Shown piece by piece: positions 3,645-21,216 of a DNA stretch of 26,672 nt. The translations under genes were made by a program, and so were the position numbers. The stretch spans positions 1 to 26,672 of IMG/VR virus record IMGVR_UViG_3300038701_001932. One strand, written 5' to 3'. The stretch is from a virus. Position 1 is the stretch's first letter. Each line of letters starts with the position of its first letter. Below the pieces are notes generated by a model. That model did no database searches, was not told where the DNA came from, and saw only the letters and a list, made by a program, of their open reading frames with translations.

Positions 3645-3808
3645 TTCCACAAATCAGGATTCAGGGCATGTGCTATCAGCGGGGCTGGAGGTTTGTTCTA
3701 AGTCAGCCTCGAAAGTACGCACGACGTAACTACCGTGGAATTGATTTGGTCTATCCGTCCATCTGGACGAACAAGAGGAGGAAGCGTGGACAACACCGAG
3801 CGGAATGA
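3641..3808 (+). CDS. Small basic hypothetical protein, 55 aa
   Basis: A 55-residue frame begins with a GTG that overlaps the lipoprotein stop (GTGA) and runs into the start of the next gene. The product is strongly basic (RKYARR, NKRRKRGQ), with aromatic residues and no membrane segment. The GTGA overlap is the same arrangement used by other coupled genes here, but there is no clear own ribosome binding site and no family is recognised, so the call is tentative. A nucleic-acid-binding role is possible from charge alone. Confidence 0.4.
   Translation: MIPQIRIQGMCYQRGWRFVLSQPRKYARRNYRGIDLVYPSIWTNKRRKRGQHRAE
3756..3769 (+). promoter_or_regulatory. Small hairpin before a GTG-start gene
   Basis: CGTCC (3756-3760) and GGACG (3765-3769) form a 5-bp stem with a 4-base loop, six bases before the AGGAGG ribosome binding site of the gene at 3786. 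It could influence translation of that gene. Confidence 0.25.
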
Positions 3809-4289
3809 ATATCTGGCCGACGAGTACCGAAAGGGTCGGACACTGGAGGAGCTTGGGCGAGAAGTCGGCATCTCTCGTGAGCGGGTCAGGCAGATCGTCG
3901 CTCAATTCGGGGCCAGTCGTCATGCAGGCGGCGCCTCAAAGCGTTCAGAGGACCGCAAGAAGAAGATTGAGTCCGAGCGCGACCAGCGATACCTCAAGAA
4001 GTACGGACTGACCCGTCAGGAGTACGTGGAGGCCCGTGACGCGGGCTATCAGAAAGCATGGGCGGACCAGAAGCGCAACGCACAGCGCCGAAATATCGGG
4101 TGGCACTTAACCCTAAAAGGGTTCATCGAAGTGTGGGAGGGGAAGTTTCACCTTCGAGGCAAGCGGCGGGATGCACTGGTGATGACCCGAATCGACCTGG
4201 ACCAACCCTTCACCAAGGACAACGTGAAGATTGTCACGCTGGCAGAGTCCGCACGACAGAACATCAACCGAATGCACAACAATGACTAA
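3786..4289 (+). CDS. HTH protein with HNH-like C-terminal phage domain, 167 aa
   Basis: Residues 18-40 (RTLEELGREVGISRERVRQI) form a sigma-70 region-4-like helix-turn-helix. A basic linker follows, and then residues about 97-160 contain NIGWHLTL, W117, VMTRID and PFTKDNVKIVT. That pattern matches a phage domain often annotated as HNH-type or homing endonuclease-like, in which a polar NVKIVT strand follows a conserved arginine/aspartate block. The combination suggests a DNA-binding, possibly mobile, protein; catalysis cannot be shown. The GTG at 3786, four bases after AGGAGGA, was preferred over the longer frame. Confidence 0.7.
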   Translation: MDNTERNEYLADEYRKGRTLEELGREVGISRERVRQIVAQFGASRHAGGASKRSEDRKKKIESERDQRYLKKYGLTRQEYVEARDAGYQKAWADQKRNAQRRNIGWHLTLKGFIEVWEGKFHLRGKRRDALVMTRIDLDQPFTKDNVKIVTLAESARQNINRMHNND

Positions 4290-5768: not shown

Positions 5769-5839
5769 CAGCCCCCAGGCTCGGGCGTCTCACGGGGCGC
5801 CCTTGCGTGCGGATTGCACGGAATGAGGAGATAGAGACG

Positions 5840-6424
5840 ATGAACATGACAGTTATCACGAACGTAGACGAAACCGTGACCATAGAGTGCAGTGCGGCAG
5901 CCTGGAACGCTCTTGCCCAGCTGGCAAAGGTCAGCGCCAGCGGCAGCCGTCCCCACCTTGCCCGTATCTGCATCCGCGCGCCCGATTGCATGGCATATGC
6001 AACGGACGGGCACCGAATGGTCGCGCTCGCGATTGACTCATTCGAACAGGACCGCGGTCATGACGACTTGTTCGCCGATCCCATCAAAGCGCCAAAGGCA
6101 AGCGGCACCGTGTCCGTGACGTGGGATGCGGAGAGAAGAGCAACACTCCGGCAGGGCGCAACGTCTGTTGACGTCACCGCGTTTTACCGCGCATCGCCCT
6201 TCCCTGATTGCGCGCGCATCCTCACCAACGCGGAGGAGGCGGAGCCAGGCATGGCGGCAGTGAACCCCAGCTACATGAAGGACGCGTCTACTTGGGTTGC
6301 GGCAGTCGCAAAAGCGGAGGGCGTAAAGACCCCAGCCATGAAAATGACGCTTTCCGAATCAGGACCCTGCACATTCGAGGCGGTGCCCGGGTTCAAAGTA
6401 ATTATCATGCCAGTGAGAACCTAG
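5840..6424 (+). CDS. Short beta sliding-clamp-like protein, 194 aa
   Basis: Three landmarks match the bacterial replication clamp (DnaN): ATDGHRMVAL at residues 54-63, SPFPDCARIL at 119-128 (compare FPDYRRVL in clamp domain 2), and a C-terminus VIIMPVRT at 187-194 like the VVMPMRL end of DnaN. NPSYMKD at 142-148 fits the NVSYVLD helix of domain 3. Cellular clamps have three domains in about 366 residues; here domain 1 and the first half of domain 3 appear to be missing. It probably tethers a DNA polymerase or other factor to DNA, but a clamp-binding decoy cannot be excluded. GAGGAG nine bases before the ATG at 5840 fixes the start over a longer frame. A strong terminator follows. Confidence 0.7.
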   Translation: MNMTVITNVDETVTIECSAAAWNALAQLAKVSASGSRPHLARICIRAPDCMAYATDGHRMVALAIDSFEQDRGHDDLFADPIKAPKASGTVSVTWDAERRATLRQGATSVDVTAFYRASPFPDCARILTNAEEAEPGMAAVNPSYMKDASTWVAAVAKAEGVKTPAMKMTLSESGPCTFEAVPGFKVIIMPVRT

Positions 6425-6450: not shown

Positions 6451-6476
6451 AGGGGCCCTAGCGGCCCCTTTCTTTT
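6451..6476 (+). terminator. Rho-independent terminator after the clamp-like gene
   Basis: AGGGGCC (6451-6457) pairs with GGCCCCT (6463-6469) around a CTAGC loop, followed by TTCTTTT. It lies 26 bases after the clamp-like stop and ends that transcript. Confidence 0.85.
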
Positions 6477-6659
6477 GCCCGAAATTCTCCCCTGTCCATC
6501 CCGTGTCCACCTTTGAGCGGTATTCCGTAGGGCGAGAAGCCCTCACCTTGCACCAGCTTTGTCCAGGGTTGGAGGGTAGGAACCTGTACAAGAATGGCAG
6601 TTGTCTAGGTTGTGACGAATGGATTTTGGGTGGTGTGGGGGGTGGGATGTTACTAATCC

Positions 6660-6741
6660 GCTCCTCTTCCGCTCCTCTTCCTCCCCTCCCTTCCCTTTCT
6701 CTCCTCTGCACCCCTTCTCTTCTCCTCTTCCCTCCTCTTCC
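6660..6741. repeat. Repeated decamer CTCCTCTTCC
   Basis: Four exact copies of CTCCTCTTCC: 6661-6670 and 6672-6681 (tandem, 11-base period) and 6722-6731 and 6732-6741 (tandem, 10-base period), inside a C/T-rich tract. The complementary strand reads GGAAGAGGAG. Confidence 0.7.
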
Positions 6742-6897
6742 CTTCCCCGCAGTCCTCCTAGAGCCATCACTCGAATCACCGCATACCCCTAGAGGCTCCG
6801 TAGTGGATTTGTGGGCGCTTTATGGGGTGGGCGGTATCTTGAATTAGGTTAGGGGTAGAGCTTGGCTTAGAGGGGCGTACAGGAGGATGAAAGGTTG

Positions 6898-14652: not shown

Positions 14653-14971
14653 GCGGAGCTATGCGGAAGACAGTGCAGGCTCAATCGACGCGCTTCGGAT
14701 GTGCGTGGGTGAGTATGTGCCCGGCCGGGCTGGCTTGCGCTCAGACATGCAGCGAGCAATTGACGGGCTGGAACAAGCGCAGGTTGACGCCGACGACGAA
14801 ATCGCCGCGCTGCGGAGGCGGGTGGCGGAGCTGGAGGCTGGCCTGCGCAAAGCAGCCGACGACATGGAGGATTGGGCAGCATACGCAGCGCCAGAGTACA
14901 GGCAGATGCACGACCTAAACGGAGACCTGCGTAAGGCCCGCGCCCTGCTGGGCGAAGGGGGTGGGTCGTGA
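14645..14971 (+). CDS. Coiled-coil protein, 108 aa
   Basis: Residues about 35-75 form a heptad-repeat coiled coil (AIDGLEQAQVDADDEIAALR followed by VAELEAGLRKAADD). The ends are short and polar. It likely dimerises. It overlaps the upstream gene by eight bases and the GTG start of the homing endonuclease by GTGA. Confidence 0.65.
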   Translation: MGERSYAEDSAGSIDALRMCVGEYVPGRAGLRSDMQRAIDGLEQAQVDADDEIAALRRRVAELEAGLRKAADDMEDWAAYAAPEYRQMHDLNGDLRKARALLGEGGGS

Positions 14972-15579
14972 GCGAGACAACGGACTGGCGAGATGTAATC
15001 GGGTACGAAGGGCTTTACAAAGTTTCTGAGTGCGGGCGTGTTCGGTCTGTTTCTCGCCGTGTCGCAACTGTTTTCGGCGCGACTCGCGGGGTGCCGCCCA
15101 AAGAGCTTGCCCAACGGCAAGCAGAGAACGGCTACTTGCGCGTCGGACTTAGCCGGGAGGGGGTGCAAAGAGGGCATCCGGTTCACGTTCTTGTTGCTCG
15201 CGCTTTTGTTGAAGGTTGGGCGCCGGGGCTGCAAGTGAACCACTTAGACCGAAACCGGCAGAACAACCGCGCTTCAAACCTAGAGTGGGTTACGGCGGCA
15301 GAGAACATGGCGCACGCGGTTGCAGCGCACGTTGAAGAAAACGGGAGGCATTGGGCTGGGCGAGGCCCGAAAAACCCGAACGCCCGATTTGCAAGCGAAG
15401 AAGTAGCGGAGATGAGAGCAATGCGCGCAGACGGGAAAACTCTTAGGGAAATTGCAACAGTTTTTAGCTTGGACGTTTCAAGCGTTGGGAAAATTGTTCG
15501 CGGCAAGCTTTACAAAGAGTGTCCGGGGCCAATCTGCCAATCCGGGCGTTTGGATCGCGGACAAGGGCGCCCCTTGTGA
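14968..15579 (+). CDS. HNH homing endonuclease with NUMOD4 domain, 203 aa
   Basis: Residues 7-30 (WRDVIGYEGLYKVSECGRVRS, split here) are a NUMOD4 DNA-binding module. The HNH core follows: VHVLVARAF (72-80), NHLDRNRQNN (91-100) and NLEWVT (104-109), with catalytic histidine at H92. A helix-turn-helix (SEEVAEMRAM to VGKIVRGK, about 143-180) closes the protein. The enzyme cuts unmarked DNA to spread its own gene. It starts with a GTG in the coupling overlap of the host operon, and its codon use is more A/T-rich than its neighbours, signs of recent arrival. A 31-codon frame follows at its stop. Confidence 0.85.
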   Translation: MSETTDWRDVIGYEGLYKVSECGRVRSVSRRVATVFGATRGVPPKELAQRQAENGYLRVGLSREGVQRGHPVHVLVARAFVEGWAPGLQVNHLDRNRQNNRASNLEWVTAAENMAHAVAAHVEENGRHWAGRGPKNPNARFASEEVAEMRAMRADGKTLREIATVFSLDVSSVGKIVRGKLYKECPGPICQSGRLDRGQGRPL

Positions 15580-15671: not shown

Positions 15672-15808
15672 CCGACCCGTCCGCACATGACGACCGGCTT
15701 GAACTGATCCGACAAATTGCGCGAATGGTGAAGCTGGAACAGCAGGGCCTCGATGACGACGAACTAGACTTCGAGCGCGAGACCCCGCTATCCGACGAAC
15801 TGGACTAA
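15668..15808 (+). CDS. Acidic mini-protein, 46 aa
   Basis: A 46-residue, strongly acidic protein: a helix (DDRLELIRQIARMVKLEQ) and an Asp/Glu tail (DDDELDFERETPLSDELD). GGGAGA about seven bases before the ATG supports it. The composition resembles DNA-mimic or antirestriction peptides, but this is only a pattern. It converges with the helicase gene: both stops lie in the CTAA at 15805-15808. Confidence 0.6.
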   Translation: MTDPSAHDDRLELIRQIARMVKLEQQGLDDDELDFERETPLSDELD

Positions 15809-17289
15809 GCTGGAGGTCCCCACCTATCGCGCACGACCCGTCGGCAGAATGTTCCTGTCGGCGGGTCAAACCCTAGCTCCGCCTTCCCCAGCTTCCCCGT
15901 CCACATGAATCTAGCCTTCCAGACGTGAAACTCGTTGCCTTCTGGCGTTCGGTGAAAGGTTAACCCTGCGTCTGCAACATTGAAGAAGTGACTAGCGCCG
16001 GAGATGTCATATCCGCCCGGCACCCTGACCTTCCCATCGTCACCTCGGTACATCTTGGAAGGGTGGGCGACCAGCCATACGTGCAGGTCGTGAGCTTTGG
16101 CGAAAGTGCAAAGAGACCGCAGGAGCTTGCGAATACTCTCTGGGTCGCCCTCGGTGTCAATGTAGTTGAATGGGTCAATCACCAATCCCCTGACCCCCAT
16201 CCGAAGTATCGCCTGCTTGGTCCGCTCAATAATTGAGTGAATGGTCGAGCCACCGCCACTCATGCTCTCAAGAAAGCAGAAATGGTCATTAATGAACCCT
16301 AAAGCCTTTTCTCGCTCCAAATTTGACATGCGGGGCGTCGGGCCGTCGAAGAAGGGCTGGTTGGCGTAGATTGCAGAGAGCTTGGCAATGTGAAGCCTCG
16401 GCGGGTTCTCCATCGAGCAAACCGCGAACTTCCAGTCATGCTCTTTGGCAAGGTGCATCATTATCTGATCCACCCCAGCAGACTTCCCCGCTGAAGGGGT
16501 GCCTGTAACCACCGACAACTGACCCGGACAGACCCGATACAACTCCTCCGTTCCAGGTATCCCGCAGAACAACCCCTCCGGCATTCCTTCTTCGTACAAA
16601 GCGCGCACGTCAGCGGCGTAATCGTTGGCCGTGTACACACCTTCAAGGGGGAGGGGTTTCGCCTCTCCTGCGGCTTTCTGGAGGGCTTCTGGGCCATGTT
16701 TGCGCAACAGGCGGGATGGGGTCTTTGAGTCTTGTGGATAAGACAGCCGCCAGCATTTCGCTCGGCCGATCCTTCGAGCCACCTCCTCTGCCAATGCCTC
16801 CCCTTGCTCGCTGGCATGGGTGGCAATGATGACCTTCTGTGCCGCCTCAAGGGCTTCAATGCTGTTGCCGAGGGCAGAGAGCTTGATGTCCTCCGAGCTA
16901 TGGACCTTACCGCTTTCGATCCGATTGACGGATAACGGGAGAGAGACTGACGCAATGCCTGCCGAAGCAAAGGACAGGCAGTCTAGTTCGCTCTGCGTGA
17001 TGACAAGGGTCGAGCGGTCTTCTGGGAGTTGGTCGATGCCGAAAAGAGACTTCGGCCAACCCTCGATGTGTTCTTGGCCTCCACGTAGGGACCGCCACTT
17101 GAGGGCGTCAGGTTCGGAGAAAGGACCGTAACAGAACGATACAGCCTCAACCGGAAGGCCTGAGCCGGGAAGATTGGTCTTCTCCCCGGTGACGCAATAC
17201 TTGCCAAGAATCTCTTTCGGGATGCAATAGTGCTCTGAGAAAACTTCAAGAATAGGTCGGGGCGCAGCGGTGCTTGCCGTTGCTTCCAT
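15805..17289 (-). CDS. Twinkle/DnaB-type helicase with degenerate TOPRIM domain, 494 aa
   Basis: The C-terminal half is a RecA-type replicative helicase: Walker A GTPSAGKS (263-270), catalytic E294 in SMENPP, Walker B LVIDPFNYID (369-378, D372), WLVAHPSK (405-412), then ISGASHFFNVADAGLTF (429-445) and arginine-finger motif WKARF (457-461). The N-terminal region is a TOPRIM primase fold without a zinc finger. E101 (TQSELDCLSF) is kept, but the metal-binding DxD is replaced by THAS (157-160) in IIATHASEQGEALAEE, and the downstream KD is not evident. It is therefore probably a helicase with little or no primase activity. It is the last gene of the replication operon and acts at the fork with the SSB-like and clamp-like proteins. 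Confidence 0.85.
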   Translation of the reverse strand: MEATASTAAPRPILEVFSEHYCIPKEILGKYCVTGEKTNLPGSGLPVEAVSFCYGPFSEPDALKWRSLRGGQEHIEGWPKSLFGIDQLPEDRSTLVITQSELDCLSFASAGIASVSLPLSVNRIESGKVHSSEDIKLSALGNSIEALEAAQKVIIATHASEQGEALAEEVARRIGRAKCWRLSYPQDSKTPSRLLRKHGPEALQKAAGEAKPLPLEGVYTANDYAADVRALYEEGMPEGLFCGIPGTEELYRVCPGQLSVVTGTPSAGKSAGVDQIMMHLAKEHDWKFAVCSMENPPRLHIAKLSAIYANQPFFDGPTPRMSNLEREKALGFINDHFCFLESMSGGGSTIHSIIERTKQAILRMGVRGLVIDPFNYIDTEGDPESIRKLLRSLCTFAKAHDLHVWLVAHPSKMYRGDDGKVRVPGGYDISGASHFFNVADAGLTFHRTPEGNEFHVWKARFMWTGKLGKAELGFDPPTGTFCRRVVRDRWGPPA

Positions 17290-17304: not shown

Positions 17305-17709
17305 TCAATCTTGCTCGGTAAAGTGTACGTCGTGCTCGGCGCCGAAGGCGTACAAGTATTCAATGGCGTTGGAGTAATCCTGACGCTTCCACGTCGCGCA
17401 GGACGAAGGCATGTACACAACCTCCCCCTCGATGCCCCGCACGATGTCTACCGGATTCCCCTCCGCATACTGGATGGCGCTCTTAATCAGTATCTTCCAC
17501 TCGTCAAAGGTCCGCTTCCGGCCGCTCCACTCAATGCCAGCCTTCACCACGTCGCGAAGCATGGCGTGAAACTTGTCCTCTTGGTCTCGGGTCTTCGGCG
17601 GCTTGAATGGTTGAACGGAGACCTCGATGGCCTCGATGGTCCTGAGCTTGTCCTTTACCTCTCGGGCGAGTTGATCTGCCTGATCAGCAGTTCGGATGAC
17701 GTGCCGCAT
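17305..17709 (-). CDS. ninB: NinB-like recombination protein
   Basis: Matches lambda NinB (Orf): RDQEDKFHAMLRDV (41-54) corresponds to the LDQNRKLWACLGDV region, and EWSGRKRTFDEWK (60-72) to EWHGRWLDAESWK. The end (IEYLYAFGAEHDVHF) also fits. NinB binds single-stranded DNA and works as a recombination mediator in place of RecFOR, interacting with SSB. Here it lies directly downstream of the SSB-like and annealase genes, as expected. The ATG at 17709 overlaps the Rmf-like gene end by 55 bases. Length 134 residues, usual for the family. Confidence 0.85.
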   Translation of the reverse strand: MRHVIRTADQADQLAREVKDKLRTIEAIEVSVQPFKPPKTRDQEDKFHAMLRDVVKAGIEWSGRKRTFDEWKILIKSAIQYAEGNPVDIVRGIEGEVVYMPSSCATWKRQDYSNAIEYLYAFGAEHDVHFTEQD

Positions 17710-17864
17710 TGTTCCATGTCCTTGTCATTCCACCCGGCCAACCACGACATGCGCCGGCCTATCTCTGCCGCCCCATATGGGCAAGCATGGCTCGGGAGGT
17801 CTTCCAATCTAGCCGACCTCCCTTGCTCATACTCCACATGATATTTAGGGGAGTGGGTGCCCAA
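17655..17864 (-). CDS. Rmf/CrpP-like protein, 69 aa
   Basis: Residues 11-50 resemble the ribosome modulation factor family: YEQGRSARL, then HACPYG, then RRMSWLAGWND (compare CPYQ...RSQWLGGW of Rmf). Rmf binds 30S ribosomes and makes 100S dimers; the related CrpP family has been linked to nucleotide or drug modification, and phage members are mostly uncharacterised. Which applies here cannot be told. The likely TTG start two bases after the SSB-like stop suggests coupling; a GTG ten codons in is an alternative. The C-terminus overlaps the NinB gene by 55 bases. Confidence 0.65.
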   Translation of the reverse strand: MGTHSPKYHVEYEQGRSARLEDLPSHACPYGAAEIGRRMSWLAGWNDKDMEQCGTSSELLIRQINSPER

Positions 17865-17866
17865 TG

Positions 17867-18163
17867 TCAGAAAGGAACTTCCGAGTCATCAAAATCATCA
17901 AACCGCTGCGCTGATTGCGCCGGCTGACGACGCTGCTGGCCCCCTTGATTGCCGCCTTCCGGCTTGTAGGGGTCAGAAACTTTGCCCGTGTACTTCGGAG
18001 CCTTGGGGTTCTGCGACTTGCCGTACCAAAGGGCGATGTCAAACGCCTCGCCCTGCTTGATGTCACGGTGGGCGTAGGCCGTCCCAGACATGATGGGTGC
18101 GTTGCCCTGAGCATCACGCTCCCAGATAGACACGGTGCCGGTGTTGTCGAATTGCTTGCTCAT
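17867..18163 (-). CDS. SSB-like single-stranded DNA-binding protein, 98 aa
   Basis: The C-terminus FDDFDDSEVPF (88-98) is the acidic tip by which SSB proteins recruit partners. The N-terminal part (NTGTVSIWERD, IMSGTAY, FDIALWYG, YTGKVSDPYKP) has the strand pattern of a very small OB fold. A Gln/Arg-rich flexible linker (70-87) joins the two. At 98 residues it is far shorter than bacterial SSB (about 178). It likely coats single strands for the annealase and helicase. AGGAGG precedes the ATG at 18163; the start overlaps the annealase stop by ATGA. Confidence 0.7.
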   Translation of the reverse strand: MSKQFDNTGTVSIWERDAQGNAPIMSGTAYAHRDIKQGEAFDIALWYGKSQNPKAPKYTGKVSDPYKPEGGNQGGQQRRQPAQSAQRFDDFDDSEVPF

Positions 18164-18888
18164 GCTTCCTCCTTGCTGTTTCGAATGTCAGTGACTTGGC
18201 GCTTGAACTCCTCGCACGCCTCGGGGTAATCAGACTGCATCTCCTCAATCTCCTCCTTGTGCTCTTTCAGGAAGTCATTGACCTCCCGTACTGATTCTCT
18301 GGCCTCCAGCATTCCCATCGCCGCATCGCAGAACAGAGCAGCGTCACTAGCATTGCGGAACTTCTTGCGGCGGGCCGGTTGCTCGGGTTCTGGTGCTGGA
18401 CCAGAAGCCTTTGCCGGATGCTTCTTGGCCTGGATTTCGTCAAAGCCTTCCGGCGTCGCCCACTTCGGAACATTCGGCGGGCGAACAATCTTCTTCGTCC
18501 GGGGGTCCATTTCGACCCACTCGTTCGGCAGAGCATAGAGATACCGGCCAATGCCATGCAGTACAGCAGCACGCTTCAGGGCGTCCGAGAACACGCCCTT
18601 GGCGCCCTCTACGTCCGTCTCTCCGGCGCCGTCGGTCTTGGTGATCCACTCATCCCCGTACTTCACAGAAAGCTCGCAGGCAAGCCGTCCGTTGCCTACA
18701 GGGACCATCTTGGATTGCCAGCCAGCCGGACCGACCACCTCATCCAGCCGGCGCATCACGTCACGGGAGTCGATGTAGGCAAGGGCAATGCAGCCTGTGC
18801 CGTCCTTCTTGGTCGGACCCGCACGCCAATGAAGCCGGTCAACCGGAAAGGGGCGCATCAGCGCGTTATGGATTTCTTCGTTGGTCAT
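18160..18888 (-). CDS. Rad52-type single-strand annealing protein, 242 aa
   Basis: The core matches the Rad52/Rad22 family of phage annealases (Sak-type): HWRAGPTKKDG (20-30), GCIALAYIDSRDVMRRLDEVVG (about 32-53), GWQSKMV, then DGAGETDVEGAKGVFSDALK (86-105) and RAAVLHGIGRYLY (106-118). Residues beyond about 140 are a variable, charged tail with a helical pair. These proteins anneal complementary single strands produced by an exonuclease. The gene follows the PD-(D/E)XK nuclease by ATGA, so the two are produced together, as in lambda Red. GGAGGCGGG precedes the ATG at 18888. Confidence 0.85.
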   Translation of the reverse strand: MTNEEIHNALMRPFPVDRLHWRAGPTKKDGTGCIALAYIDSRDVMRRLDEVVGPAGWQSKMVPVGNGRLACELSVKYGDEWITKTDGAGETDVEGAKGVFSDALKRAAVLHGIGRYLYALPNEWVEMDPRTKKIVRPPNVPKWATPEGFDEIQAKKHPAKASGPAPEPEQPARRKKFRNASDAALFCDAAMGMLEARESVREVNDFLKEHKEEIEEMQSDYPEACEEFKRQVTDIRNSKEEA

Positions 18889-19826
18889 CCCGCCTCCAAG
18901 CCGTGAAGGAACTGGTCACACCACGGCGCCACATTACAGAAGTTCTTTTCGCACCGAACCGCTTGGCCCGGACGCTCCTCGATGTACAGCTTCTTGTCGT
19001 CTCCAGCGTAAGCCTTGGCATCGTCCTCAGAGTCCAAGACGCGAAGCGCACGCTTGTTGCCGCGCTTCATCACCGCCCACTTCGCATCCTTCTGCCAACG
19101 CTCCTCATTGCTGCACAGAGGCAGGATACCATCCGAGGCAAAGACTTCGCGGGCCTCCCGATGAACGGCAACCCGCTCCTCGAAGTACCGCTCTTGCTCC
19201 TCTGGAGACCACACCGGAATCCGAATCAGAGCAATCGGCATCTGAGGGTAGGACGGGTCCATTTCGGCTTTCGACTTTTGCCAGTCACGCAGGAGCGCAA
19301 TGATCCGCAGACCATCCGTATGCGCGCCTATCGTGTCTTTGCCCGCATCGTCCTTGCGATACCCCTTCCTCCGAAGGTGGGCGTAGACGTTTAGTTGGTT
19401 CTCCCACTCCTGCTTGCCGAGGTAAACGATAGAACCGTCGTCACGCTGGACCTGAGACCCGAAGATAAGGGTAAAGGCCGAGGTGATCTTGTAGTCCCAA
19501 ATCTTCTGATGCTCGCCTACCTGCTGGATGTCCATTGCCCCGGAGACCGTAAGACCCTGGGTGTCCAGATACAGCCGCTCCTCCGCTTCGTACTCGCCTT
19601 CCGCGTACTCCTCGAAGATGTTGTGGACAGCCGTGCCGAATACCGACCAGAGTTGGTCAATCGCATCGACCTCGATGTCGTCGTCGTGTATCTGACGCAT
19701 GAGGGAGATGCGGGGCGAGTCGATGATTTGAGTCACCGACAGGTCCGCGCCGCCCTTGCTGTACTTGTCGTCAGTCAGCGCACGAAATACGGGGTCGGGC
19801 AAGTTGTGCTTGTTGGTGTACCTCAT
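18885..19826 (-). CDS. Cas4/RecB-like PD-(D/E)XK exonuclease, 313 aa
   Basis: Nuclease core residues are visible: H68 (FGTAVHNIFEEY), D99 (SGAMDI), D111 and K113 (IWDYKIT) and Q144 (ENQLNVYAHL). The C-terminus has C292, C297 and C303 (RCEKNFCNVAPWC), plus C238, which could hold an iron-sulfur cluster as in Cas4 and AddB. Such phage enzymes degrade one strand of duplex ends to feed an annealase; the next gene is exactly that. No CRISPR genes are nearby. The start at 19826 follows GGGGGAGGA. Confidence 0.85.
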   Translation of the reverse strand: MRYTNKHNLPDPVFRALTDDKYSKGGADLSVTQIIDSPRISLMRQIHDDDIEVDAIDQLWSVFGTAVHNIFEEYAEGEYEAEERLYLDTQGLTVSGAMDIQQVGEHQKIWDYKITSAFTLIFGSQVQRDDGSIVYLGKQEWENQLNVYAHLRRKGYRKDDAGKDTIGAHTDGLRIIALLRDWQKSKAEMDPSYPQMPIALIRIPVWSPEEQERYFEERVAVHREAREVFASDGILPLCSNEERWQKDAKWAVMKRGNKRALRVLDSEDDAKAYAGDDKKLYIEERPGQAVRCEKNFCNVAPWCDQFLHGLEAG

Positions 19827-20023
19827 TCCTCCCCCACACTTTTAGTTTCGGCTTCAAGCCTCCGCAGATTGCGAGGGCTATACCAGCGGTGAACGCCAGC
19901 CTCTGGCCCGTCAAGAATCTTGACCCATTGATCATATGTTCCCGCAATCACTCGGTCAGCATGAGTCAGCACGCACACCCACCCATCAGGCGTCAACGCG
20001 TACGCCCCTCTTGCTTCTCTCAT
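19823..20023 (-). CDS. Hypothetical protein, 66 aa
   Basis: A 66-residue protein with repeating hydrophobic strands (WVCVLTHADRVIAGTYDQWV) and a basic R-rich turn (RWYSPRNLRRLEAET). The look is of a small beta-barrel (SH3-like). Its stop and the nuclease start overlap by ATGA. GGAGGAGGA stands immediately before the ATG. Confidence 0.7.
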   Translation of the reverse strand: MREARGAYALTPDGWVCVLTHADRVIAGTYDQWVKILDGPEAGVHRWYSPRNLRRLEAETKSVGEE

Positions 20024-20044
20024 TCCTCCTCCTCGCCTTGTGGC

Positions 20045-20374
20045 TTATCGTACCCGCTGGCACTCGACTCCTTCGGGAATCATGCGAGCCGAGAACTGGG
20101 TATCGGGATTGGCTTTGTGGAACGCCTGAATCCGATTACGCAGCGCCGACGCCCAGCCCTTCTGGTCTTCCGGCGTCATGGCCTTCTGAAGATCGGGTTC
20201 GGCAGGGACGACGAACACATCGCCAATTTCCATCTCGGCAAAGGGGAGCTTGCCGAGCTTGCGCCGAGCCTTCTGCACCGGCTTCTTCACGATTTCATAC
20301 ACGTTTGGTTCTCCTGTGTTTTCCAGCCAACCTTCTTCTTCTCCACGGATGATGTAGTCACCCATCTTGCTCAT
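20045..20374 (-). CDS. Hypothetical phage protein, 109 aa
   Basis: Residues about 43-109 (KLPFAEMEIGDVFVVPAE, then a helix with RNRIQAFHKANPD and FSARMIPEGV) follow the pattern of a small phage domain of unknown function (resembling DUF7303-type proteins). The N-terminal 40 residues are a separate acidic-to-basic stretch (RGEEEGWLENTGEPNVY). GAGGAGGA precedes the ATG. It is the second gene of the operon and overlaps its upstream neighbour by ATGA. Confidence 0.65.
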   Translation of the reverse strand: MSKMGDYIIRGEEEGWLENTGEPNVYEIVKKPVQKARRKLGKLPFAEMEIGDVFVVPAEPDLQKAMTPEDQKGWASALRNRIQAFHKANPDTQFSARMIPEGVECQRVR

Positions 20375-20571
20375 ATTTCCTCCTCATCGGGGTCTTTCCC
20401 TCCATGAATTGCCCACGACCGAAGCTCGTAGCGGAACTCCGCAAGCGAGCGGTCTGCGCTGTCTTGCTCTGCCAAAGGAACGCCCAACATCGTGCTGTCA
20501 GAGCGTTTCAACATCTCTGCAAGGTCGAAGTAAATAGACGCCTTGATGGCGTTGATGTCGTCCTCAGTCAC
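20371..20571 (-). CDS. Hypothetical protein, 66 aa, first gene of the replication operon
   Basis: A 66-residue acidic helical protein (DDINAIKASIYFDLAEMLKR; later SLAEFRYELRSW) with an Asp/Glu-rich end. GTG at 20571 was chosen over longer starts because GAGGAGGA stands seven bases before it. A sigma-70 promoter lies just upstream (20599-20627), so this is the first gene of the transcript that carries recombination and replication functions. Confidence 0.6.
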   Translation of the reverse strand: MTEDDINAIKASIYFDLAEMLKRSDSTMLGVPLAEQDSADRSLAEFRYELRSWAIHGGKDPDEEEI

Positions 20572-20598
20572 GGCATTCCTCCTCTTGAGCCAGTAGAC

Positions 20599-20627
20599 AA
20601 TGTACAATGACCACAGCGTCACGTCAA
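20599..20627 (-). promoter_or_regulatory. Promoter of the minus-strand replication operon
   Basis: On the minus strand TTGACG (20622-20627) and TACATT (20599-20604) are separated by exactly 17 bases; the boxes match consensus at 5/6 and 4/6 positions. The start of transcription would be about 20 bases before the first gene. It overlaps the plus-strand TACAAT box (20603-20608) before ninG. Confidence 0.65.
20603..20608 (+). promoter_or_regulatory. -10-like TACAAT box before ninG
   Basis: GTACAATGA at 20602-20610 occurs identically at 4862-4870 and 21225-21233. It lies about 33 bases before the ninG start. TGAGC at 20586-20590 starts 17 bases upstream, as at 1255 and 2003. No -35 is apparent. 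Confidence 0.35.
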
Positions 20628-20640
20628 CACGGAGTCACGA

Positions 20641-21216
20641 GTGAAGCGTTCGCCTTTGCAGCAGAAGAAGCCGAGGAAGCGGAAGTGCGAGGGGTGCGGG
20701 GAGGCCTTCCAGCCCGACCGCATGGGGCAGAAAGCGTGCTCGCCCATGTGCGCCGTCAAGACCGTGAAGGACGCAAAGCAGAGGGAACGCAAGCGTGAGA
20801 CGAAGGCGGCAAAGGATCGGCTCAAGACGCGCTCTGAGTGGGCCAAGGAGGCGCAGACAGCCTTCAACGCATGGGTGAGGGAGCGGGACTACGGAGAGCC
20901 GTGTATCTCGTGTCAGAGGCATCACAAGGGGCAGTATCACGCCGGGCACTATCGGACAGTCGGCGCCTGCCCTGAGCTACGCTTTGAACCGCTCAACGTG
21001 TCGGCACAATGCTCTGCCTGTAACCTGCATCTTTCTGGAAACTTGATTGAGTACCGCATCAACCTCGTGAAGAAGATTGGTGCAGAGAAGGTGGAGTGGT
21101 TGGAAGGGCCGCATGAGCCTAAGCACTACACGGTTGAAGACCTGAAGGCAATCAAGAAGGAGTACAGCAGGAAGGCTAGGGAGTTGAAGAAGAAGCGCGA
21201 GGCTTCCCAAGGCTGA
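20641..21216 (+). CDS. ninG: NinG (Rap) recombination endonuclease
   Basis: A close match to lambda NinG/Rap over its whole length. The N-terminal zinc region has C16/C19 (CEGCGEAF) and C33/C37 (ACSPMC). A second group has C88/C91 (PCISC), AGHYRT (101-106), C124/C127 (CSACN) and SGNLIEYR (132-139). A C-terminal helix with EDLKAIKKEYSRKARELK closes it. Rap cuts branched DNA such as D-loops and Holliday junctions, so it would resolve what the annealase and NinB make. GTG start at 20641 with GGAG upstream. It is divergent from the replication operon. Confidence 0.9.
   Translation: MKRSPLQQKKPRKRKCEGCGEAFQPDRMGQKACSPMCAVKTVKDAKQRERKRETKAAKDRLKTRSEWAKEAQTAFNAWVRERDYGEPCISCQRHHKGQYHAGHYRTVGACPELRFEPLNVSAQCSACNLHLSGNLIEYRINLVKKIGAEKVEWLEGPHEPKHYTVEDLKAIKKEYSRKARELKKKREASQG

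Follow-up and report, generated by a model that had tools for sequence, protein, structure and literature searches.

A short DnaN-like protein of a widespread phage family keeps the clamp-binding-motif pocket and may act without a ring

A small gene in a viral DNA of 26,672 bases encodes a protein that consists of half-domains 2a, 2b and 3b of bacterial DnaN, the beta clamp, and lacks domain 1 and half-domain 3a. This architecture is confirmed by profiles, alignments and a predicted structure, and it is shared by a large family of phage proteins, many of which carry the name of an unrelated enzyme. The explanation that we favour, with moderate confidence, is that the product is a ringless DnaN-type fragment whose kept function is the pocket for clamp-binding motifs, which would dock host proteins as a competitor or a recruiter. 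The DNA analysed (hereafter the window) is the entire IMG/VR virus record IMGVR_UViG_3300038701_001932, which is possibly a fragment. The elements of the gene are the following:

5825..5830, plus strand: GAGGAG, a Shine-Dalgarno-like sequence 9 nt 5' of the start codon (from the sequence)
5840..6424, plus strand: coding sequence of the short DnaN-like protein, half-domains 2a-2b-3b, 194 aa (open reading frame, PHROG matches, profile, AlphaFold2 model, Foldseek)
5876..6046, plus strand: half-domain 2a, residues 13-69; its ATDGHR (54-59) belongs to pocket subsite I (aligned with E. coli DnaN, and secondary structure of the model; boundaries approximate)
6065..6223, plus strand: half-domain 2b, residues 76-128, lacking the alpha helix, with C-terminal FPDCARIL, pocket residues P122, R126 and I127 (alignment, model)
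6254..6421, plus strand: half-domain 3b, residues 139-194; NPSYMKD and the C-terminal IIMPVRT belong to pocket subsites I and II (half-domain profiles, alignment)
6451..6469, plus strand: terminator-like hairpin 3' of the gene (pattern scan)

The reading frame starts with the ATG at 5840 and is the last in a plus-strand run of small genes. The hairpin is a weak call, as the pattern scan found one such structure in comparison with 1.7 expected in shuffles. Just 3' of the gene, a strong pyrimidine-rich (C/T) stretch covers positions 6655-6750. The rest of the record encodes a primase/helicase-like ATPase and a recombination module (17305-21216) with NinB, a Rad52/Erf-like annealing protein, an exonuclease and NinG. 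The primase/helicase-like protein (15805-17289, 494 aa) shows toprim-like and DnaB-like parts, no zinc-binding domain was recognised in it, and its closest phage relatives, at 36% identity, come from cyanobacterial phages. An HNH endonuclease of the homing type with a NUMOD4 motif is found at 14968-15579, and two adjacent, partly overlapping ORFs (1302-1679 and 1574-1978) encode similar proteins (WLCKCECG...CGCL and WLCQCECG...CGCL), apparently a tandem duplication.

The landmarks from which a shortened clamp had originally been proposed are all present in the translation (ATDGHR at 54-59, FPDCARIL at 121-128, NPSYMKD at 142-148 and MPVRT at 190-194). Single-sequence searches with Pfam and with phmmer against the PDB returned no match for the window protein because its sequence is very divergent, and profiles were therefore required. 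In the PHROGs search it matched phrog_3007 (E=2.5e-8, residues 32-193), phrog_947, a processivity factor (E=1.6e-6), and also phrog_6615. A profile built from 44 relatives, with the window protein left out, gave it 38.5 bits (E=9e-9, Z=200,000), while the best of 2,000 shuffles in the same test reached 7.0 bits, so its homology to the short-clamp family is beyond chance. In addition, a profile of 15 members, the window protein included, matched E. coli beta with E=1e-24 over the stretches 136-296 and 313-366. The AlphaFold2 model of the window protein (pLDDT 83, pTM 0.78, 35-row alignment) is closest to solved beta clamps in a Foldseek search against the PDB, and the relative L053 was modelled with pLDDT 96 and pTM 0.90. 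The viral models retrieved by Foldseek are mostly short proteins, either unnamed or labelled 'DNA polymerase III, beta chain, central'. An origin from DnaN is thus supported by profiles as well as by the predicted fold. One candidate relative was discarded: L002, the first match in viral contigs, lies in a frame antisense to phage genes and shares the seed peptide PFPDCARI by chance.

Among the matches listed by the profile and Foldseek searches, bacterial beta clamps were found, not PCNA or gp45. The trimers of T4 gp45 and PCNA resemble the window protein in their half-repeat fold and in a similar chain length, but each of their chains holds four half-repeats (two full domains) instead of three. 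The chain of the window protein amounts to 1.5 domains, in comparison with the three domains (about 366 aa) of ring-forming DnaN.

The order of these parts is best seen at the level of the family. The tail of the window protein scores best against 3b among six half-domain profiles, yet with 2.8 bits, which is weak for the window protein alone; in the family, 41 of 43 tails score best against 3b of cellular DnaN rather than against 3a or any other half-domain, and the order 2a-2b-3b is therefore assigned to the family. Most of the short proteins have some 65-70 residues left after the [F/Y]P[D/N] motif. No clamp domain 1 was found anywhere in the window record. These data support what had been proposed from the first reading, namely a chain that lacks domain 1 as well as the first half of domain 3 and has three half-repeats left. 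A further change affects 2b, whose strands in the window model span residues 76-79, 90-95, 101-105 and 108-112. The helix between the first two is absent from the models of both the window protein and L053, although a minority of members (L005, L006, L016 and L018, for example) apparently retain it by sequence. In the beta clamp, this helix is among those that face DNA inside the ring.

What the original prediction described as a single oddity belongs in fact to a widespread phage family. With the member from Vibrio phage pYD38-A as query, 301 phage records were matched at E<=0.01, some of which may encode full-length clamps, and in 273 of them the match spanned at least 80% of the 178-aa query. 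Fourteen of the 16 named records examined (Roufvirus pIS4-A, a duplicate of pYD38-A, was left out of this count) encode short proteins of 170-258 aa, while AmM-1 holds a full-length clamp of 379 aa. The entry for the Campylobacter phage A11a (MG065691, marked UNVERIFIED; L019, 1596-2696) was rejected, since it contains an intact E. coli dnaN and is probably a contamination from a host library. All 79 IMG/VR relatives that were kept are short ORFs of 170-198 aa, most of which are preceded at a short distance by an in-frame stop. E. coli phages of laboratory collections, such as Bas77, Bas79, Bas80 and Bas81, also encode relatives. Cellular DnaN, which was mainly what a scan of genome contigs returned, was used as comparison set.

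The short proteins are not new to the databases, and some of them are rightly named clamp-like; the annotations of the matching phage records include RusA, DNA polymerase III beta subunit, DNA clamp protein and hypothetical protein. The label 'RusA-like Holliday junction resolvase' is attached to this DnaN-like family in PHROGs (phrog_3007; for example L003, 3229-3765) and in many RefSeq phage records. That the product is indeed such a resolvase has nothing but this database label in its favour. Since none of 15 members scanned against Pfam matched RusA, whereas nine matched the central domain of DnaN, and profile and predicted fold both lead to beta clamps, a resolvase is contradicted by sequence and predicted fold, and we give it practically no credence.

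It could also be thought that the window protein is a decaying remnant of a full-length dnaN, given that its branch is very long in a tree of short and cellular forms and that no close relative of it was found in the searches. However, the same short architecture recurs in 79 of 79 IMG/VR relatives, the family has a dN/dS of 0.09 (median of 149 pairs of related members, which are thus under purifying selection), and the reading frame, the ribosome-binding site and the pocket are intact in the window, all of which makes decay a far-fetched proposal. In this tree, a single branch (99/100) separates the short forms from the cellular ones, the latter being gammaproteobacterial only; as the tree has no root and the branch of the window protein is so long, a single origin of the short forms is no more than a possibility.

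The proteins of phrog_3007 (from Roufvirus, Guernseyvirinae, Dhillonvirus and lambdoid phages) are the closest counterparts of the window protein, with which they share length, the order 2a-2b-3b and the pocket residues, and the 2b helix is missing from most of them too. The window protein differs from them in being very divergent (about 20% identity) and acidic, and in lacking the first lysine of the 3b helix.

What has been kept and what has been lost in this architecture can be read from the residues of the pocket and of the dimer interface of E. coli beta listed in a 2024 review (PMC11139829). The 18 published residues of the E. coli pocket for clamp-binding motifs all fall within the retained segments (P=1.2e-6), while the seven dimer-interface residues (I78, R103, F106, I272, L273, E298 and E304) all fall within the lost ones. 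The identity of the window protein to E. coli is 13/18 in the pocket versus 18/138 elsewhere (P=3e-7), and several of its non-identical pocket positions are conservative changes. Across 46 diverse members, the mean identity to E. coli is 0.73 in the pocket and 0.21 elsewhere. Relative to cellular DnaN, the short forms conserve their pocket in proportion and not beyond it (difference test, P=0.69). Since cellular DnaN, too, is most conserved in its pocket, these figures indicate that it has been maintained and do not imply an unusual constraint. Many members, the window protein among them, carry changes at the subsite positions 177, 344 and 364. Compared with bacterial DnaN, the window protein thus has the same half-repeat fold in domain 2 and in the second half of domain 3, together with the pocket, but no domain 1, no 3a, none of the listed dimer-interface residues and one DNA-facing helix fewer.

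A ringless motif-binding protein would most simply explain why the whole pocket has been kept while the ring interfaces and one of the DNA-facing helices have been lost. The original prediction had instead put the emphasis on rings, either a tetramer or a PCNA-like trimer. Three half-repeats in each of four protomers do add up to twelve, and such a closed ring would be a phage-specific sliding clamp. In the beta clamp, 3b lies beside 2a, and the retained parts are thus contiguous in clamp space and leave two free edges, for which self-pairing is conceivable in principle. Four copies would then build a two-faced ring of twelve half-repeats with clamp-binding pockets on both faces, a symmetry that, to our knowledge, has no precedent among sliding clamps of any cell or virus. 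Nevertheless, the free edges would need contacts that are not known in clamps, the listed dimer-interface residues are all lost, the DNA-facing 2b helix is gone in the window protein and in L053, and no clamp loader is encoded in the records with a short clamp. The emphasis on rings is therefore unsupported, and we regard both the closed tetramer and its two-faced form as very improbable. The same prediction had mentioned a non-ring decoy of the host clamp as an alternative; it is this idea that the data favour, since the docking pocket is kept, although they fall short of proof.

The main rival to a ringless pocket protein is a DNA tether comparable to UL42 of herpesviruses, that is, a ringless processivity factor that would bind DNA through basic residues and use the pocket to hold a polymerase, either Pol III of the host or PolA of the phage, which would make both ring and loader dispensable. 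Viral clamps that have no loader, UL42 among them, lack a ring shape, are rich in positive charge and bind DNA by a basic helix (PMC9690074). UL42 (a monomer) and UL44 (a C-shaped dimer) resemble the family in combining a clamp-type fold with no closed ring, here a prediction, and with no loader; unlike the window protein, they are of PCNA/viral-type descent and serve their own polymerase. The charge of the family points in the same direction, as its median net charge is +1 and its pI 7.7, versus -6 and 5.1 for the same parts of cellular DnaN, and the charge of the 3b helix shifts from -1.9 in cellular forms to +1.5 in the family. In this helix, a basic residue (K/R) has been gained at position 329 in 39 of 46 members and at 332 in 40 of 46, which hints at DNA contact in most members. 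However, while the charge of the family is shifted in the basic direction, the window protein itself, with a net charge of -3 and a pI of 5.6, is acidic and holds only the second of these two lysines; any binding of it to DNA is hypothetical. Moreover, the channel residues that are invariant (R197, K198) or nearly so (R205, K235) in cellular DnaN are mostly lost in the short-clamp family.

The genomic context of the relatives bears on this question as well. The short-clamp gene adjoins that of PolA in BcepC6B and PhiXhv-1, and in L181 it lies about 2.3 kb before it, which speaks for a polymerase tether. Nevertheless, a PolA-like polymerase was found in only nine of 36 records with a short clamp, and PolB, PolIII-alpha, clamp domain 1 and clamp-loader ATPase in none of the 36, some of which are fragments (AmM-1, with its full-length clamp, was added to the searches for the last two). 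The polymerases and helicases beside the short clamp are essentially devoid of clamp-binding motifs, with the exception of one weak match in the L181 polymerase; in total, three matches were obtained in 38 proteins (window proteins and neighbouring phage polymerases), which is near chance. On balance, we consider a UL42-like tether possible but unlikely. The lack of clamp-binding motifs in the adjacent phage polymerases and helicases points to host partners. No phage DNA polymerase was recognised in 27 of the 36 records, and many of these phages thus seem to depend on Pol III and the clamp of their host.

In Dhillonvirus AV129 (where it is annotated as such), Salmonella phage SE1 and Roufvirus, it is placed like a moron, antisense to adjacent head genes and outside the replication operon. 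This would suit an accessory clamp surface for phage repair, mutation control or regulation, selective for partners such as Hda, MutS/MutL or Pol IV and not for the replisome, and the altered subsite residues 177, 344 and 364 could shift its motif preference. Such a selective role conflicts with the location of the gene in lambdoid phages, between cII and O (with DnaB next in L030), and we judge it rather improbable.

The ringless pocket protein that we propose would be a monomer or a small open oligomer, whose pocket would dock the QLxLF-type motifs of proteins that bind the host beta clamp. Candidate partners are the delta subunit of the clamp loader, Pol III alpha, Pol IV, Hda, MutS/MutL and ligase. 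Docking away from the ring would lead to competition with the host clamp or to redirection of these partners during infection. Homology, architecture, pocket conservation, the losses described above and purifying selection in the family are observed, whereas the binding of the same motifs by the pocket, the absence of a ring and an effect by competition or recruitment are inferred. A precedent for the potency of such a protein is the preference of delta for monomeric beta, which it bound about 50 times tighter than the dimer, while monomeric beta did not support processive synthesis (PMC11139829). Several considerations count against this explanation: a wholesale inhibition of the host clamp would harm those phages that need host Pol III, the position of the gene in the replication operon of several phages fits a positive role in replication equally well, the pocket is conserved in proportion to cellular DnaN and not beyond it, and the basic residues gained at 329 and 332 hint at DNA contact.

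The same run of genes in the window includes another protein, encoded at 3735-4289, which shows a sigma-70 region 4-like helix-turn-helix (Pfam, E=3e-7) and weakly matches a PHROG named 'decoy of host sigma70' (E=8e-4). It is possible that this is a second mimic of a host information-processing protein.

In a literature search with partial coverage, no description of a ringless phage DnaN reduced to its pocket was found. In any case, the label RusA is due for correction in both RefSeq and PHROGs. If the proposed explanation is true, a large and mislabelled phage family would represent a natural pocket-only beta clamp, in which the pocket, the same site that is bound by clamp-targeting antibiotics, has been freed from the ring. 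It would then offer phages a route to capture, or to outcompete, the clamp-binding hub in the replication and repair of the host, and would also provide a tool to disturb this hub.
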